Shown here piece after piece: positions 5,326 to 21,599 of a DNA stretch of 32,411 bases. Under the pieces are notes generated by a model. It had not been told where the DNA came from. It worked only from the letters and a program-made list of their open reading frames with translations, and ran no database searches. The translations under genes and the position numbers were made by a program. The stretch is from contig JAAYNA010000017.1 in NCBI GenBank assembly GCA_012521105.1, forward strand, positions 1-32,411, given 5' to 3'. Position 1 is the first letter of the stretch. Every line of letters begins with the position of its first letter. Origin of the DNA: Clostridiaceae bacterium (GTDB taxonomy: Bacteria > Bacillota > Clostridia > DSM-8532).

Positions 5326-5387
5326 CTAATATTTGCAATTATTGCAATATTTCGTGGGGCCCATCGCTCGTAGTTTCCCTCACTTCT

Positions 5388-5546
5388 ACTGCAGGCAGGT
5401 ATTCTGACTTGGATTCATCGCATACATTCGCCTTCCCATCATTCGACAGTGGCATTATGAATGTATACTCATCCTTACAGCGGCGGGACCGTCCGGGATT
5501 TACACCCGGTTCCCTTTTAAGTGCATCCAAACTGCACACCTGCAAT
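5388..5546 (-). ncRNA. Cobalamin (B12) riboswitch aptamer
   Basis: Read on the minus strand, this stretch has the conserved landmarks of the AdoCbl class in order. There is a closing P1 arm (TGCAGGT), then GGGAACCGGGTGTAAATCCC, then CGGTCCCGCCGCTGTAA, a variable arm, a second GCCACTG-like segment, and the B12 box AAGTCAGAATACCTGCC (near 5396-5412). It sits directly upstream of the BtuF-like gene with a terminator in between. Binding of a corrinoid is expected to favour termination. The 68-codon open frame inside it is not a gene. Confidence 0.93.
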
Positions 5547-5679
5547 ACATATATTAAATTGTAATTATTATAGACTGGTTTGGCACCAGCAAAGCGCCAT
5601 AAATCCGTTTTAATTATATAATTAATTATAAAGTATTATGTTGAACTTTGTAAAGGTTTTTCAGGCAGATTAATTTTTA

Positions 5680-6107: not shown

Positions 6108-6650
6108 TTATAATACACCACGTACACTTGCAGGAGCAAATTTTTTTACTAAAGAACCGGTAGTGTACAAAATTAATATTTGAATGGGTATTGTAATTAA
6201 TGCCTTTATTAGCCTTGCCACAACAAGCACCTTATACGCATTCCCCGTTAAAATATACAGCCATATCGAGTTTAGCAGAACCTCCACAACCAATATCATG
6301 GTAATAGCAGCAAAAATAACTCTTTTCCAGGTAATTTCCTTCCTGTAAAGAAACAGTCCATATATAATTCCCGAAACAAACCCGCTTACGGTAAACCCAG
6401 GGAAAAAAGGGCCTACCGGGTTTATCGCCCAACCCACTATATCACCCAAGACTCCTGTTATGCCACCTGCAATAGGACCAAACAGAATTGAAGCCCATGC
6501 TACAGGCATAAATGTCAGGCTTAATCGAAGTTCGTTAGGAATGATGTAGATTCGTAATAAGGAGAGAACACCATAGATTGCAACAAATAAAGACATCAGT
6601 ACCATTGAAAAAATATTTCTCACGAATGACGAATTGCCTTTCTTAACCAT
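6108..6650 (-). CDS. folT: ECF transporter S component, folate type (FolT)
   Basis: Substrate-binding membrane subunit of an energy-coupling-factor importer, 180 residues with about six hydrophobic segments. The family layout is clear: LRIYIIPNELRLSLTFMPVA near residues 31-51, then SILFGPIAGGITGVLGDIVG with GPFFPGFTVSGFVSG, and ARLIKALITIPIQILILY near the end. The assignment to folate comes mainly from the tetrahydrofolate riboswitch just upstream. The energising subunits EcfA, EcfA' and EcfT are not in the window and must be shared from elsewhere. The ATG at 6650 has GAGGAGG seven T residues upstream. The DUF2007 gene follows in the same transcript. Confidence 0.88.
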   Translation of the reverse strand: MVKKGNSSFVRNIFSMVLMSLFVAIYGVLSLLRIYIIPNELRLSLTFMPVAWASILFGPIAGGITGVLGDIVGWAINPVGPFFPGFTVSGFVSGIIYGLFLYRKEITWKRVIFAAITMILVVEVLLNSIWLYILTGNAYKVLVVARLIKALITIPIQILILYTTGSLVKKFAPASVRGVL

Positions 6651-6756: not shown

Positions 6757-6857
6757 AGCAGCGGGATGCGGCGCCTGTACCGCAAGCCTTCCGGCTTTTC
6801 GTCCGGATGTCAACTCCCCGTTCACCCGGCACTTAACGCACAAACGCCTACTCTGCT
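6757..6857 (-). ncRNA. Tetrahydrofolate (THF) riboswitch
   Basis: On the minus strand the segment reads AGCAGAGTAG, then CGTTAAGTGCCGGGTGAACG, then GGGAGTTGACATCCGG and ACGAA, and closes with GGCGCCGCATCCCGCTGCT. These are the conserved positions of the folT-associated THF class I aptamer, including the CGUUAAGUG core and the GCCGCAUCC segment. The outer stem is AGCAG with CTGCT. Downstream hairpins (about 6724-6760 and 6683-6704), ahead of the GAGGAGG of folT, probably form the expression platform, which would act on translation because no T run follows them. Confidence 0.93.
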
Positions 6858-16823: not shown

Positions 16824-18725
16824 CTAACAATCACCTTTACTTCTTAACCGTTTAAGAACTCTTTCTGTTAAGCCCTTTGGATCAAGACTGTATTTTTTAT
16901 ATAAAAGGTTCCTTTTTCCATGCTCTATTGGGATATCCGGAAAGGCAGCAATTTCAACCGGAATGTTTATCCCGGCTTCGTTTAGCTTAACCAAAACTGT
17001 GCTCCCAAACCCGCCACTTGCTATATGATCCTCAACTGTCATAACAAACCGGGTTTTTTTTGCAGATTCACAAAGCATATCGATATCAAAGGGTCTTATA
17101 AAACGATAATATATAATATCACAGTGTATCCCATGGCACTCAAGTTCTTTTGCGGCATCAAAAACGGCATCCACCATGTACCCTGTTACTGCAATTGTTA
17201 TATCTTTCCCATCCGAAAGTTTTACAGCCTTCCCACATTCAATTGGCAAATCGGGTACAAGGTTTCTTTTTCCCTGCCCTCTTGGGTACCGGATTGCAAT
17301 GGGGCCTGTTCCATATTCCACTGAAAAATCAAGCATTTTCTCCAGTTCATCGTAGTCCGCAGGTGACATTATAGTTATATTGGGCAGGGTTGAAAACAAT
17401 GCAATATCATATATACCCTGATGGGTTTCACCATCGTCACCCACAATTCCTGCCCTGTCAACAGCAAATATAACATTAAGATTCATTAAAGAAACATCAT
17501 GAATGATCTGATCGTAGGCCCTTTGCAAAAAAGACGAATAAATGGCTACAACAGGTTTTAATCCTCTAATAGCCAGACCGGCTGCCATGGTAACTGCGTG
17601 TTGTTCTGCAATACCTACGTCAAAAAAACGTTTTGGGTACTTTTCGCTAAAATGGCTGAGACCTGTTCCCTCGGGCATTGCTGCGGTAATTGCCACAATG
17701 TCTTCATGCCTTTCTGCCAGTTCAACAAGCTTCTTTCCAAAAACATTGGAAAAGCTGCCATTGGTTTCTGTTATAACTTCGCCTGTTTCTACGTTAAAAG
17801 GCGAAATACCATGGTATTTATGTGGTTTTTCTTCAGCAGGGGAATAACCCCGGCCCTTTTTTGTGCAAACATGTATCAGAACCGGTTCCTTTATGTTCCT
17901 AACCCTTTCCATTACTTTGTACATTTCGGCTATATTATGCCCGTCCAGCGGACCATAGTAGCGGAACCCCAGTTCTTCAAAAAGTACACCGGGAAGAAGC
18001 AGGTATTTTAACGATCCTTTAACTTTGTGAAAAACCTTCCTGGCTGATTTACCAATTGCAGGTATATTATCAACCAGCGACTGAAAATCATTTCTGACTT
18101 TATAATAAATAGGTTCGGTCCGTATCCGGCTAAGGTATCGTGACATGCCTCCGACATTTTTGGATATTGACATTTCGTTGTCATTTAAAATAACGATCAG
18201 GTTGGTTTTACTGTTTCCGGCATCATTTAAAGCCTCAAAGGCCATACCGCCCGTTAAGGCACCGTCCCCGATTACTGCAACAACGCTGTAATCTTCTCCA
18301 AGAAGATCCCGCGCCCTGGCAATACCAAGTGCAGCAGATATTGATGTTGAACTGTGACCTGTGTTAAAGCAATCGTGTTCACTTTCGGTTATTTTTGGAA
18401 AACCAGAAATACCATCCATTTGCCTGATGGTTTCAAGGGCATCCTTCCTTCCCGTCAATATTTTATGTACATAGGTTTGATGCCCGACATCCCACACGAT
18501 TTTATCGGTTGGAGACTTAAAAACCGTATGTAAAGCAATGGTTAATTCAACCACGCCAAGATTTGAAGCAATATGCCCGCCGGTTTGGGATATTTTATCT
18601 ATTAAAAAAGCCCGTATTTCGTCTGCAAGTGTTTGAAGGCAGCATAGCTTCAAATTCTTTAAATCTTCAGGTTCCTGTATACAGCTCAATACCCCTGTTG
18701 AGCATAAGCAAATTTTATCGTTCAA
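16824..18725 (-). CDS. dxs: 1-deoxy-D-xylulose-5-phosphate synthase
   Basis: Thiamine-diphosphate enzyme for the first step of the MEP isoprenoid pathway (pyruvate plus glyceraldehyde 3-phosphate), 633 residues. It has His51 in GGHIASNLG, His82 in DVGHQTY, the TPP motif GDGALTGG at 153-160 ending in NDN near 181-183, and the C-terminal domain with VGIAEQHAVTMAAGLA. The start is a TTG at 18725 with GGAAAG seven bases upstream. The N-terminus is about ten residues longer than many homologues and contains a cysteine cluster (KICLCSTGVLSC) not usual in the family, so a later start is possible. It follows oapA by 100 bases. Confidence 0.95.
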   Translation of the reverse strand: MNDKICLCSTGVLSCIQEPEDLKNLKLCCLQTLADEIRAFLIDKISQTGGHIASNLGVVELTIALHTVFKSPTDKIVWDVGHQTYVHKILTGRKDALETIRQMDGISGFPKITESEHDCFNTGHSSTSISAALGIARARDLLGEDYSVVAVIGDGALTGGMAFEALNDAGNSKTNLIVILNDNEMSISKNVGGMSRYLSRIRTEPIYYKVRNDFQSLVDNIPAIGKSARKVFHKVKGSLKYLLLPGVLFEELGFRYYGPLDGHNIAEMYKVMERVRNIKEPVLIHVCTKKGRGYSPAEEKPHKYHGISPFNVETGEVITETNGSFSNVFGKKLVELAERHEDIVAITAAMPEGTGLSHFSEKYPKRFFDVGIAEQHAVTMAAGLAIRGLKPVVAIYSSFLQRAYDQIIHDVSLMNLNVIFAVDRAGIVGDDGETHQGIYDIALFSTLPNITIMSPADYDELEKMLDFSVEYGTGPIAIRYPRGQGKRNLVPDLPIECGKAVKLSDGKDITIAVTGYMVDAVFDAAKELECHGIHCDIIYYRFIRPFDIDMLCESAKKTRFVMTVEDHIASGGFGSTVLVKLNEAGINIPVEIAAFPDIPIEHGKRNLLYKKYSLDPKGLTERVLKRLRSKGDC

Positions 18726-18825
18726 TTACATGCTTTCCTTCCTTCAGAATTTATAGATTAACTGGCTGGTTTCCCGATATAGTTCCACATTCGTATATTT
18801 TACTAAACTGCAAAAGTTAAATCAA

Positions 18826-19440
18826 TTATTTATTTCCATTTGCTGGTATGAACAGAGAAAGAAACAGCCCTGCATGGTAAATGATAAAATTGCTGTTACT
18901 CATTCCAAACCTTTTTGCAAAAGCTTTTCCACCCACCGTGAATGCGGCTATCAAACCGCCAACCGCTGCTTCTATCCAAACAGACTGGGCACTTCCCGAA
19001 AATATACGGAAAACAATGGCAGCACCTGCAGTTCCACTGACAACACCGCATATATCACCAATAACATCATTGCAAATGCTTGCTACTTTATCAGCATTCC
19101 GGATTAAGCGTATTGCATACCTGGCACCTTTATACTTTTTAGATGCCATGGCGTGAAAAGGTTTTTCATCGGCAGCAGTTACAGCAACACCTATCACGTC
19201 AAAAAATATTCCTATGAAAATAATGATAAAAACAATCAGAAACGACCAAAATATGGATATCCTTTCAAACAAACCTGTAGATATAAAAAGAATACCCATA
19301 GATAATAAAAAAGATACAACGGTTACAGTAACAGCCCATAGCGTTTGCTCTCTTTTAGGTCCTCCCTTTACCTTTTTAACGGGTATACGTCTTTTATCTG
19401 CAACCTTGTATTTATTGATCTTCTTATCAGCTTTCTCCAT
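18826..19440 (-). CDS. oapA: OLE RNA-associated membrane protein OapA
   Basis: Membrane protein of 204 residues. The N-terminal 33 residues are very basic (KKINKYKVADKRRIPVKK), suited to RNA or lipid head-group contact. Four to five hydrophobic segments follow (about 34-56, 62-90, 125-150, 155-172, 183-200). The connecting loop contains DVIGVAVTAADEKPFHAMAS and later NDVIGDICGVVSG. Family knowledge: OapA is a small multi-pass protein encoded just downstream of OLE RNA. It binds that RNA and localises it to the membrane. Here it lies immediately downstream of a 0.7 kb structured non-coding region, between ispA and dxs, the expected locus. The ATG at 19440 has only a weak GGTAAA site, so its translation may depend on the RNA upstream. 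Identification rests on synteny plus sequence resemblance. Confidence 0.85.
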   Translation of the reverse strand: MEKADKKINKYKVADKRRIPVKKVKGGPKREQTLWAVTVTVVSFLLSMGILFISTGLFERISIFWSFLIVFIIIFIGIFFDVIGVAVTAADEKPFHAMASKKYKGARYAIRLIRNADKVASICNDVIGDICGVVSGTAGAAIVFRIFSGSAQSVWIEAAVGGLIAAFTVGGKAFAKRFGMSNSNFIIYHAGLFLSLFIPANGNK

Positions 19441-19469
19441 TTATATTTACCGATACTTTCATGCAAGTA

Positions 19470-20132
19470 TGATTACATACAGGATGGCGATATACATGGT
19501 AAATTTTGCGGCTTAGGTCAGGCAGGTTTTCCCCAAAGTGTACCGCTCGTCGCCAAACGGCTGTTTCCATTTAAACACTTTGTCGAAGGGTTGCCCTCAT
19601 CGAAGCCTGATCACCACTTAGTCCACACTGCAATCCCATGTATACCTGATGTACAGTCTAGGGGTTTTCCCCAAAAGCCTTATTTGCTTCTAGCCTCTTT
19701 TGCAGGATTGATTTCAAACAGCAATAATGCAAAGGTACTGGCCTGGCACCAAAGCATCTGATCCATTATCCCTCAAACCCCACTCAAGGCAGGCTACACT
19801 GCTCACAGCACCGAACTGCGGAACCGCAAAGCAGGTTCTTCCCGTAACGTAGTCAAGGTATGTATCCATTATCAGGAGCAACCTGTCTTCCACGAATACG
19901 GGTCTCCACGGTAGCGGGGTCAATATCCTGCATGCCATTGCAGGTTGCCCCAAAACCTTAACTCCCAGCACCAGCCCATCACTGGGCGTAACAAGCCGAC
20001 ACCAGGAACTTCATCGATGTGCCCTTTAACGGATTTTTAGGCCCGTCTTCAAAACAAACAGTGCCAACTAGAATACTGCGCCATCCTAATATGTTAAATT
20101 TTCAGTAAGATATCTTCTTACTTCCTATGTTG
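19470..20132 (-). ncRNA. OLE RNA (ornate, large, extremophilic RNA)
   Basis: About 660 bases without a plausible gene but GC-richer and more structured than other gaps here. Minus-strand hairpins include GCCCA-GTGA-TGGGC (19987-19974), CTGCA-ATGGCA-TGCAG (19943-19928), AGGG-CAA-CCCT flanked by TCGA on both sides (about 19605-19582), and an 8-bp stem CAAAGTGT/ACACTTTG (19582-19534) that encloses a further CCG/CGG stem. GGGGAAAACC occurs twice (near 19670 and 19530). Position, length, and the oapA gene directly downstream between ispA and dxs match OLE RNA. The 5' end is placed just after the promoter at 20139-20167. The 3' end is an estimate, and covariance-model alignment would set it. An 85-codon open frame inside is judged spurious. 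Confidence 0.85.
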
Positions 20133-20138
20133 ATAATT

Positions 20139-20167
20139 ATTATAACACAGCTTTTAAACCCGGGCAA
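20139..20167 (-). promoter_or_regulatory. Promoter for OLE RNA
   Basis: Minus strand: -35 TTGCCC (20167-20162), 17-base spacer, perfect -10 TATAAT (20144-20139). It lies between the stop of the DUF212 gene and the start of the structured region, so the RNA and the oapA-dxs genes downstream may be transcribed independently of nusB. Confidence 0.65.
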
Positions 20168-20223: not shown

Positions 20224-20664
20224 TCAATTTATTGCTATCCCCGTTATAATTCCCAATGCTGCCCCTGCGAACACCTCGACCGGTGTGTGCCCTAAAAGCT
20301 CTTTTAGCTGCTTATCAAGCTGAATGTGCTCACTTGAATTTACAAGCTTATTTAAAACTTCAGCCTGTCTCCCGGCAGCTCTTCTAACCCCGGCAGCATC
20401 AGCCATTACTACAAGCGAAAAAATAACCGACAATGCAAAAATATCTGACGAAAAGCCATTATGTATACCCAAGATGGTTGCTAACGACACAGTAAAAGCG
20501 GTGTGCGAACTGGGCATTCCACCCGAGTCTATGAACTTCCTGAAGTCGGGCTTACGATTTTTTATATAAGAATAGATAAATTTAATGCTTTGCGCCAAAA
20601 ACCATGCCAACACCGGCGTTGTAATAGCCCTGTTGTTTAAAATATCTAACAGAAACTGGAACAT
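20224..20664 (-). CDS. DUF212 / divergent PAP2-family membrane protein (YuiD-like)
   Basis: Membrane protein of 146 residues related to acid phosphatases of the PAP2/vanadium haloperoxidase superfamily. Conserved blocks are PDFRKFIDSGGMPSSHTAF at 39-57, VVMADAAGVRRAAGRQAEVL with its double Arg, and LKELLGHTPVEVFAGAALG near the end. The SGGMPSSH and GHTP segments stand where the PAP2 phosphate-binding and catalytic His motifs occur. The activity of this family has not been settled. Its place 38 bases after ispA hints at a prenyl or lipid phosphate substrate, but that is inference. The ATG at 20664 follows a GAGGTGTGAG segment. The OLE promoter lies just beyond its stop. Confidence 0.85.
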   Translation of the reverse strand: MFQFLLDILNNRAITTPVLAWFLAQSIKFIYSYIKNRKPDFRKFIDSGGMPSSHTAFTVSLATILGIHNGFSSDIFALSVIFSLVVMADAAGVRRAAGRQAEVLNKLVNSSEHIQLDKQLKELLGHTPVEVFAGAALGIITGIAIN

Positions 20665-20702: not shown

Positions 20703-21599
20703 CTAATTCCTTCTTTCAGCGATAAAATAAGCAATCTCCTTTAAAAACCAGGCTTTCTCCCCGAATATATTCAAAACTTCAATTGCTTTTTCAGTCACAT
20801 TCCGAAGCATTTTCTTTGCTCCATCCAGACCATATAATGATACATAAGTTGTCTTTTTATTCTTTGCATCGCTTCCAACAGATTTGCCTAATTCTTCGCT
20901 GGTACCTTCAACATCAAGGATATCGTCTTTAATTTGAAAAGCAACTCCTATATAACCCGCATATTCAGACAGGGCTTTTATTTCATCATCAGGCAAACCT
21001 ATGAAAACAGCAGGGGCAATGATACTTGCCATAATTAATGCTCCGGTCTTCTTCCTGTACATGGTTTTAAGGGTCGTCTCGGAAATTTGCTTTCCTTCGG
21101 ACTCTATGTCAATAACCTGGCCTGCGATCATCCCGTCCATTCCTGCAGCACTGGCAATTACACAGGAAGCTTTAACAGACTGTTCCATTTTTTCACCTGC
21201 TTTGGCAGAAGTCTTAAACAGCAGGTCAAAGGCTTCATTCAATAAAGCATCACCTGCAAGAATCGCCATGGCTTCGCCGAACACTTTGTGATTTGTTAAT
21301 TTACCACGCCTGTAGTCATCGTTATCCATTGCAGGCAAATCGTCATGAATCAGTGAATAAGTATGAATCATTTCTATTGCCGCAGCAAAGGGCATTACTT
21401 CAGAAAGTTCTGCCGACATCATTTTCGCCACAGCCAGGACCAAAACCGGTCTTATTCTCTTTCCCCCGGCCATCATGCTGTAGTGCATGGATTCTATCAG
21501 TTTTGTTTCGGGTACTTCTGACTTAAGTCTTTCAAAATACTCCAATAAATAATTGTCAACCAGTAACGTTAAACTCATTAATTCCTCTTTAAAATTCAT
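20703..21599 (-). CDS. ispA: Geranyl/farnesyl diphosphate synthase
   Basis: Trans-prenyltransferase of 298 residues making C15 farnesyl diphosphate from IPP and DMAPP. GGKRIRP is at 45-51, the first aspartate-rich motif DDLPAMD at 86-92 with the following DDYRRGKLTNHK, and the second motif DDILD at 225-229 with GKSVGSDAKNKKTTY after it. The four-residue spacing in the first motif is the bacterial type. The start overlaps the xseB stop (TAATG) with GGAGG seven bases upstream; an internal ATG at codon 8 also has an AGAGGA. With dxs in the same locus it gives two steps of isoprenoid supply. Confidence 0.95.
   Translation of the reverse strand: MNFKEELMSLTLLVDNYLLEYFERLKSEVPETKLIESMHYSMMAGGKRIRPVLVLAVAKMMSAELSEVMPFAAAIEMIHTYSLIHDDLPAMDNDDYRRGKLTNHKVFGEAMAILAGDALLNEAFDLLFKTSAKAGEKMEQSVKASCVIASAAGMDGMIAGQVIDIESEGKQISETTLKTMYRKKTGALIMASIIAPAVFIGLPDDEIKALSEYAGYIGVAFQIKDDILDVEGTSEELGKSVGSDAKNKKTTYVSLYGLDGAKKMLRNVTEKAIEVLNIFGEKAWFLKEIAYFIAERRN

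Follow-up and report, generated by a model that had tools for sequence, protein, structure and literature searches.

A full-length OLE RNA beside oapA in a Clostridiaceae genome and a short OapA loop that accompanies the RNA

Genes and features of the OLE-oapA locus

The window, by which we mean the whole stretch of 32,411 nucleotides analysed, belongs to a 3.38-Mb draft genome in 194 contigs that is 98.6% complete. The genes and signals around the OLE RNA are as follows.

20703..21599, minus strand: ispA, farnesyl diphosphate synthase (NF045485, 358.3 bits)
20224..20664, minus strand: divergent PAP2 (DUF212) gene between ispA and OLE (PF02681, 166.3 bits)
20139..20167, minus strand: promoter-like site upstream of OLE, reading TTGCCC-17-TATAAT and having a TG ahead of the -10 (consensus scan only)
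19468..20100, minus strand: OLE RNA (Rfam RF01071), full length (cmscan 494.3 bits, E 2.7e-142, model 1-616 of 616)
18826..19440, minus strand: oapA, 204 aa, membrane partner of OLE RNA (DxxxD, position beside OLE, weak CNNM match, predicted fold)
18797..18825, minus strand: promoter-like site ahead of dxs, lying in sequence also conserved in G026, the congener without OLE (consensus scan and comparison with G026)
16824..18725, minus strand: dxs (TIGR00204, 794.5 bits)

The initial annotation had proposed that a gap in this region holds an OLE RNA, and the covariance match bears this out: it runs from 20100 to 19468, takes up most of the gap and covers the model from end to end, the gathering score of RF01071 being 50 bits. 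A whole-genome covariance search returned a single OLE match (n = 1), the one at this locus. The window locus is a complete and ordinary representative of a remarkable known class, OLE, one of the largest conserved RNAs in bacteria that still lack a known biochemical task.

OLE lies on the minus strand within the 783 nt that separate the stop of the DUF212 gene from the start of oapA. The placement between ispA and dxs given at the outset was correct, except that the divergent-PAP2 gene separates ispA from OLE. Likewise, the gap was described as directly upstream of the oapA gene, which it does adjoin, but the OLE model match itself stops 27 nt short of the oapA start. Upstream of OLE are found, in order, the divergent-PAP2 gene, ispA, xseB, xseA and nusB, and oapA is followed by dxs, tlyA, NAD kinase, argR and the gene of an SMC/RecN-type ATPase. 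The isoprenoid/exonuclease/argR-recN block that had been recognised is therefore present, and the gene clusters described for OLE in PMC12265935 agree with this neighbourhood. The promoter-like site upstream of OLE (20167-20139) has 10/12 consensus matches and is suggestive only, because the scan gives 8 promoter-like sites in the region where 4.1 are expected.

Both of the other protein partners, OapB and OapC, have homologues encoded in the source genome. The OapB homologue was located by position, between frames recognised by eye as map and infA, and its best PDB match is 7k9b, 'OLE-associated protein B' (E 5.3e-11). The OapC/YbxF homologue matches PDB entries 4lck and 3v7e (E 2.4e-13). The KOW Pfam model was rejected as a means of finding OapB, since the frames it returned were recognised as being of the uL24 and NusG type.

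Conserved elements of the OLE RNA

The window RNA was compared with the RF01071 model and with 75 OLEs, these being the 78 distinct sequences of 88 anchored loci minus L035 and L051 (mis-anchored) and L117 (scaffold gap). The elements assigned within it are listed below.

20052..20060, minus strand: 5' strand of helix P3, proposed in print as membrane-spanning (9 pairs with 19689-19681; strand assignment by the present analysis)
20033..20040, minus strand: A-rich P4 loop CUAAAAAU (from the model alignment; an RNA dimer contact in the published cryo-EM models, PMC12265935)
19983..19987, minus strand: loop GCCCA, taken as P5.1, one half of the P5.1/P6.1 intermolecular kissing pair (GCCCA in 72/75 OLEs)
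19932..19939, minus strand: loop AAUGGCAU, taken as P6.1, the other half of the P5.1/P6.1 pair (AANGGCAU in 75/75 OLEs)
19740..19743, minus strand: P9 loop GGCC, a self-complementary kissing loop (palindromic in 74/75 OLEs)
19681..19689, minus strand: 3' strand of helix P3, pairing with the 5' strand at 20052..20060

The conserved blocks of the model are kept, including the P4, P5.1, P6.1 and P9 dimer loops. As for differences, two hairpin loops between model positions 190 and 280 are longer by 18 and 7 nt, the P9 loop has one extra base, and a small 4-bp hairpin at model positions 424-435 is largely missing. Variant OLE RNAs from the TANB77 and RF39 clades, as described in PMC11332333, belong to the same RNA class, but their P7 and P8 are shortened or missing, whereas the window RNA spans the entire model.

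The P5.1/P6.1 contact is an intermolecular kissing pair according to PMC12265935, and the assignment of its two loops within the window is that of the present analysis. The P9 kissing loop reads GGCC in 70 of the 75 OLEs, GCGC in four (L034, L036, L066 and L082) and GACC in one. These counts come from alignment columns and replace those of an automatic P9-loop finder, which mis-registered 7/75 sequences. A loop that is palindromic in all but one sequence is consistent with the homodimeric contact seen in cryo-EM.

Sequence, predicted fold and orientation of OapA

Two elements of the window protein are referred to throughout.

19135..19161, minus strand: OapA loop P94-K102 (PFHAMASKK), where OLE is predicted to dock (present in OLE-associated OapAs, missing from the seven of genomes without detected OLE)
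19054..19068, minus strand: OapA D125-D129 (DxxxD), membrane core (56/56 OapAs; kept in RNA-less OapAs)

The initial annotation took the neighbouring gene for OapA, a small polytopic protein with a highly basic N-terminus, and was right on each point. The product has 204 aa, with 13 K/R in the first 33 residues after Met, and it contains the OapA-specific DxxxD, D125 and D129 being invariant in 56/56 aligned homologues (the A3 set). The closest named OapA, that of the MAG DTU070, is 88% identical, and other near OapAs come from records titled Thermoclostridium, Ruminiclostridium or Clostridiaceae. The OapA of Halalkalibacterium halodurans (L062, DSM 497) shares DxxxD, the loop PFHAMAS, the position beside OLE and basic termini, but identity is 39% and the window protein has a longer basic N-terminal tail.

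The AlphaFold model of the window OapA (mean pLDDT 86.3) comprises four long helices (28-57, 62-88, 115-145 and 152-180) and three shorter ones. A Foldseek search of the PDB with this predicted model gave 7m1t (MtCorB) at probability 1.00, with a TM-score of 0.51 by query and an E-value of 1.5e-3. Even this best E-value is modest, but the top six matches are all CNNM/CorB/CorC chains at probability 0.99-1.00, and among the 50 matches listed all those with a probability of at least 0.99 are chains of this kind (7m1t, 7m1u, 7cff, 7cfg). Pfam gave a weak CNNM match of 21.9 bits, below the cut-off of 28.4, and found neither a CBS pair nor a CorC domain after the membrane domain of the 204-aa protein at E up to 0.001. 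The window OapA is thus like the CNNM/MpfA/CorC/CorB Mg2+ transporters in its predicted transmembrane fold, but is without their CBS or CorC domains and scores below the Pfam cut-off. It also has DxxxD, a motif that CNNM domains are said to be without (PMC11332333). The relation of OapA to MpfA is not new, having been published in that same source.

Orientation was predicted from charge only. The K+R bias, inside minus outside, is +23 in the window OapA and lies between +15 and +29 in all 56 OapAs, and in every one of the 56 sequences the predicted cytoplasmic loop by itself has more K+R than the two outer loops (+1 to +8). Dual-topology proteins have a charge bias near zero. So strong a positive-inside bias predicts a single OapA orientation with N- and C-termini inside, and all contacts between OapA and the RNA would then be cytoplasmic. 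The basic residues may, however, serve RNA binding rather than topology.

This bias bears directly on the published model in which OLE is an integral membrane RNA whose helix P3 spans the bilayer. The model (PMC12265935) rests on cryo-EM dimer geometry and has one OapA site on either side of the membrane, which requires OapA to be inserted in both orientations. P3 itself is well supported as a helix by the alignment: 86.2% of cells pair over the 9 positions, compared with 64.6% when partners are shuffled (maximum 68.4% in 500 shuffles, which leave relatedness in and use the better of two registers per sequence for observed and shuffled alike), and up to six pair types occur per position. It covaries strongly at a nearly constant length, which favours the transmembrane model; its 5' strand measures 15-18 nt in the 75 OLEs (CV 3.5%), the CV of the P7-P8 region being 21%. 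However, the P9 arm, which is not proposed to span a membrane, is as constant in length (CV 3.4%, 73 sequences), so the constant length of P3 neither supports nor refutes spanning. Moreover, every one of the 56 OapAs is strongly positive-inside, unlike dual-topology proteins, and we regard an RNA that crosses the bilayer with OapA in both orientations as unlikely.

Distribution within the order and probable loss in a congener

Thirty three genomes of the order were surveyed, with OLE detected in 30 and OapA in 31. The three without an OLE match are G018, which has only a 58-nt OLE tail at a contig end, G013 and G026. The status of G013 is undecided because it gave no ispA match and its dxs matches are only partial (31-37%). 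Two of the detected OLEs, those of G003 and G014, are contig-end pieces, and an apparent insertion in the 765-nt OLE of G002 was rejected as a scaffold gap with runs of N.

G026, a congener, is closed and 100% complete, and is without both ole and oapA while keeping the order ispA, DUF212-like frame, dxs. No remnant of ole or oapA was supported between its ispA and dxs. A 53-bp match to oapA proved to be mostly the stretch with the dxs promoter, and the remaining 89 nt were rejected with a score of 24, as high in 15/300 shuffles and not at the oapA 3' end. G026 retains OapB and a YbxF-type protein. Most likely, ole and oapA disappeared jointly from this congener while the other partners stayed, which is what one would expect if OapB and OapC have other tasks (PMC11332333).

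CNNM matches above 160 bits occur in 15/33 genomes, including 14/30 with detected OLE and the OLE-less G026; each of the four congeners has one copy. Replacement of OLE by MpfA in this order was considered and rejected, with no exchange seen among the 33 genomes. As CNNM is found in 14 of the 30 OLE genomes, the published anticorrelation of OLE and MpfA is not visible within the order.

OapA in genomes without detected OLE

At the level of the class, 393 genomes yielded OLE in 164 and a match to the OapA profile (A3) in 175, the whole-class OLE search having been run with stricter filters and two candidates scored per genome. Eleven genomes had an OapA match and no detected OLE. Four of these matches are weak (G057, G085, G138 and G362; E 8e-6 to 5e-5); that of G138 has 23 bits in a 461-aa frame, and weak long-frame matches of this kind score 19-23 bits. 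The other seven are strong, at 143-171 bits, with six from a single genus, g12 (G037, G117, G176, G255, G282 and G366), and one from G402.

The g12 genomes are about 1 Mb in size. Their gene, here named OapA2, follows a prolyl-tRNA synthetase frame in 5/6 (in G366 it starts near a contig end) and precedes an infC frame in 5/6 (another gene follows in G282), and its distance from the upstream gene, in the genomes that show that gene, is roughly 40-300 nt. The domains of the neighbours were checked by Pfam in L160, and that of the upstream gene also in L165. Two genomes of the same genus, G070 and G267, hold OLE, a normal OapA and an OapA2-type paralogue. At L159-L162, L166, L168 and L169, OapA2 stands directly before an L20-leader-like RNA, which scores below the Rfam gathering score, and infC.

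In G402, oapA (L163, G402:C2:239171-239719) occupies the canonical slot, 33 bp after ispA and overlapping dxs by 4 bp. Only these 33 bp precede it, compared with 783 nt in the window. The G402 protein scores 35.2 bits to CNNM, above the cut-off, and its predicted model (pLDDT 73.5) has a helix order similar to that of the window OapA, its six best PDB matches being CNNM chains.

No OLE was found near the nine genes (about 3.5 kb each, 2.6 kb in G366) at Rfam E-values up to 1. With E up to 0.1, about 20 kb around the genes of G037, G282 and G402 and 9 kb of G366 likewise gave none, and neither did a further 40 kb of G037 at the gathering score. In G290, G318, G178 and G314, OLE and oapA are on different contigs or about 200 kb apart. 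Given such separation and the filters of the class search, an unlinked OLE is possible in G402, as is an unlinked or divergent OLE in the RNA-less genomes as a whole. We nevertheless consider it probable that RNA-less OapAs exist in the class. One paper describes oapA as exclusive to ole-containing organisms, and another states that ole and oapA may never occur apart. No paper on an RNA-less OapA was found in the literature on OapA with OLE, CNNM, topology or TANB77, a search that covered few subscription papers.

A loop of OapA that goes with the RNA

OLE-associated OapAs have in common a form of P[FL]xAMAxKK-x2-GA in the stretch that joins long membrane helices two and three. A relaxed version of this pattern matches 53/56 OLE-associated OapAs (A3), the other three holding P[FL]xAMA and failing only at the last position of the pattern, and 4/4 OapAs whose OLE lies elsewhere in the genome. 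It matches 0/7 OapAs from genomes without detected OLE and 0/2 RNA-unlinked paralogues, the latter being in genomes whose OLE-linked OapA keeps the loop. A stricter pattern gave 52/56, 4/4 with unlinked OLE, 0/7 RNA-less, 0/2 paralogues and 4/4 divergent OLE-linked OapAs.

OLE, or a piece of it, stands beside 79 of the 80 OapA loci kept from named genome records, 65 being called by ordered anchors, 13 more by Rfam and L022 by a 62-nt OLE tail; 15 of the 65 anchor-called loci were also run through Rfam and 15/15 matched. That all A3 rows are OLE-linked could not be upheld, as L054 is unlinked; it appears to be G290, with its OLE elsewhere in the genome.

A closer inspection of single positions showed that P94 and M98 reach 91% among 64 OLE-associated OapAs and occur in neither RNA-less group, and that D81, D125, G128, D129, G136, K172 and K176 stand at 98-100% in all groups. 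For the G402-type group these percentages involve some circularity, since the loop's absence was the criterion by which its 20 database rows were selected. G77 and N124 differ in both RNA-less groups and were candidates for a tie to OLE, but were dropped, since OLE-linked OapAs of the same genus (L157 and L158) share the changes. Relaxed constraint on one branch could therefore explain part of the signal.

In database relatives, counted on sequence alone, the loop occurs in 0/120 of those listed (of 510 found, chosen regardless of the loop) for OapA2 and in 45/120 of those listed (of 470 found) for the G402 protein. DxxxD is kept in all 240 listed relatives and in all seven RNA-less OapAs. Over the 45 residues that precede DxxxD, net charge averages +2.2 in A3, -0.1 in the RNA-less genomes and -0.6 in OapA2 relatives, but stays at +1.9 in the unsorted G402-type relatives. 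In the model of the window OapA, the loop region folds into helices 92-99 and 105-113. The corresponding pair of membrane helices in MtCorB is linked by a helix-turn-helix that is cytoplasmic and carries basic residues (PMC8242095). Some OapA-like proteins among P0135-P0240 have a PL[TN]AMA version of the loop, and L079, which groups with them, has OLE.

One in six of the listed OapA2 relatives and one in four of the listed G402 relatives were taken into the trees. These divide the RNA-less proteins between two clades, of 28 sequences (support 0.999) and 21 sequences (0.978) without an outgroup; with six MpfA-type outgroup sequences the supports are 0.903 and 0.975. The G402 clade branches from within the loop-bearing OapAs whether or not the CNNM outgroup is included. 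In the unrooted tree the OapA2 clade joins L072 and the OLE-linked OapAs from its own genus (support 0.966), while in the CNNM-rooted tree it lies outside all other OapAs, across a branch of 2.88. As its position shifts with rooting, OapA2 may be either a secondary or an old RNA-free form.

The loop correlation rests on two lineages, both on long branches. These branches, the rooting of OapA2 outside all other OapAs with the CNNM outgroup and the above-cut-off CNNM score of the G402 protein (35.2 bits) could all be accounted for if OapA2 and the G402-type proteins were ordinary CNNM-like proteins or drifted OapAs, in which case the loop difference would say nothing about the RNA. This is improbable given that all seven score 143-171 bits to the OapA profile, compared with 19-23 for weak long-frame matches, that all seven keep DxxxD and that the G402 gene sits in the canonical ispA-dxs slot. 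Moreover, two clades are without the loop, and one of these arises from within the loop-bearing OapAs.

Proposed mechanism

The absence of the loop from the OapA relatives of seven genomes without detected OLE makes it the likely docking site of the RNA. On balance we favour a reading in which the OLE RNA and OapA from the window locus would form the known OLE ribonucleoprotein, with OapA as a predicted CNNM-type transporter of Mg2+ or another divalent ion. Its predicted cytoplasmic loop P94-K102 would dock OLE, and the RNA would regulate transport, doing the sensing much as the CBS and CorC domains likely do in MpfA-type transporters.

Persistence of the OapA core without detected OLE suggests that OapA likely has a function of its own. 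This speaks against OLE being mainly a ribozyme or a translation-linked regulator with OapA as only a membrane anchor, an idea put forward as speculation in PMC11332333 and in keeping with the bS21 binding reported in PMC12054373. With OapA homologues of intact membrane core persisting where no OLE was detected, we think it distinctly unlikely.

Returning to a transporter docked by the RNA, there is about an even chance that OapA is a free-standing cation transporter with or without OLE, so that the RNA has gone in two lineages while the DxxxD transporter stays, and PFxAMAxKK is a plug for OLE. If so, exchanging the loop should link the transporter to the RNA or sever the two. What the present analysis adds is this comparison, which brings together a pair probably lost naturally in one congener, OapAs that probably exist without the RNA, and a short loop whose presence follows that of OLE. 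As natural controls, RNA-less OapAs would set the protein part that accompanies the RNA apart from the part that likely carries out the chemistry. With them, the site and the membrane side at which OLE and OapA meet become a matter of swapping nine residues.

Additional observations

At L164 (G321), OLE and oapA are separated by a long, almost perfect inverted repeat (1183-1313), and the OapA match there is divided between two frames. The repeat is listed as a MIR4371-like palindrome and is perhaps a small mobile element.

Elsewhere in the window, a cobalamin riboswitch (5377-5558, minus strand, 127.9 bits) lies upstream of a set of genes for a periplasmic-binding protein, a FecCD permease and an ABC ATPase, which is likely a B12 importer. 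A tetrahydrofolate riboswitch (6757-6857, minus strand, 95.4 bits) stands before the gene of an ECF transporter S component (6108-6650), which is likely a folate transporter.
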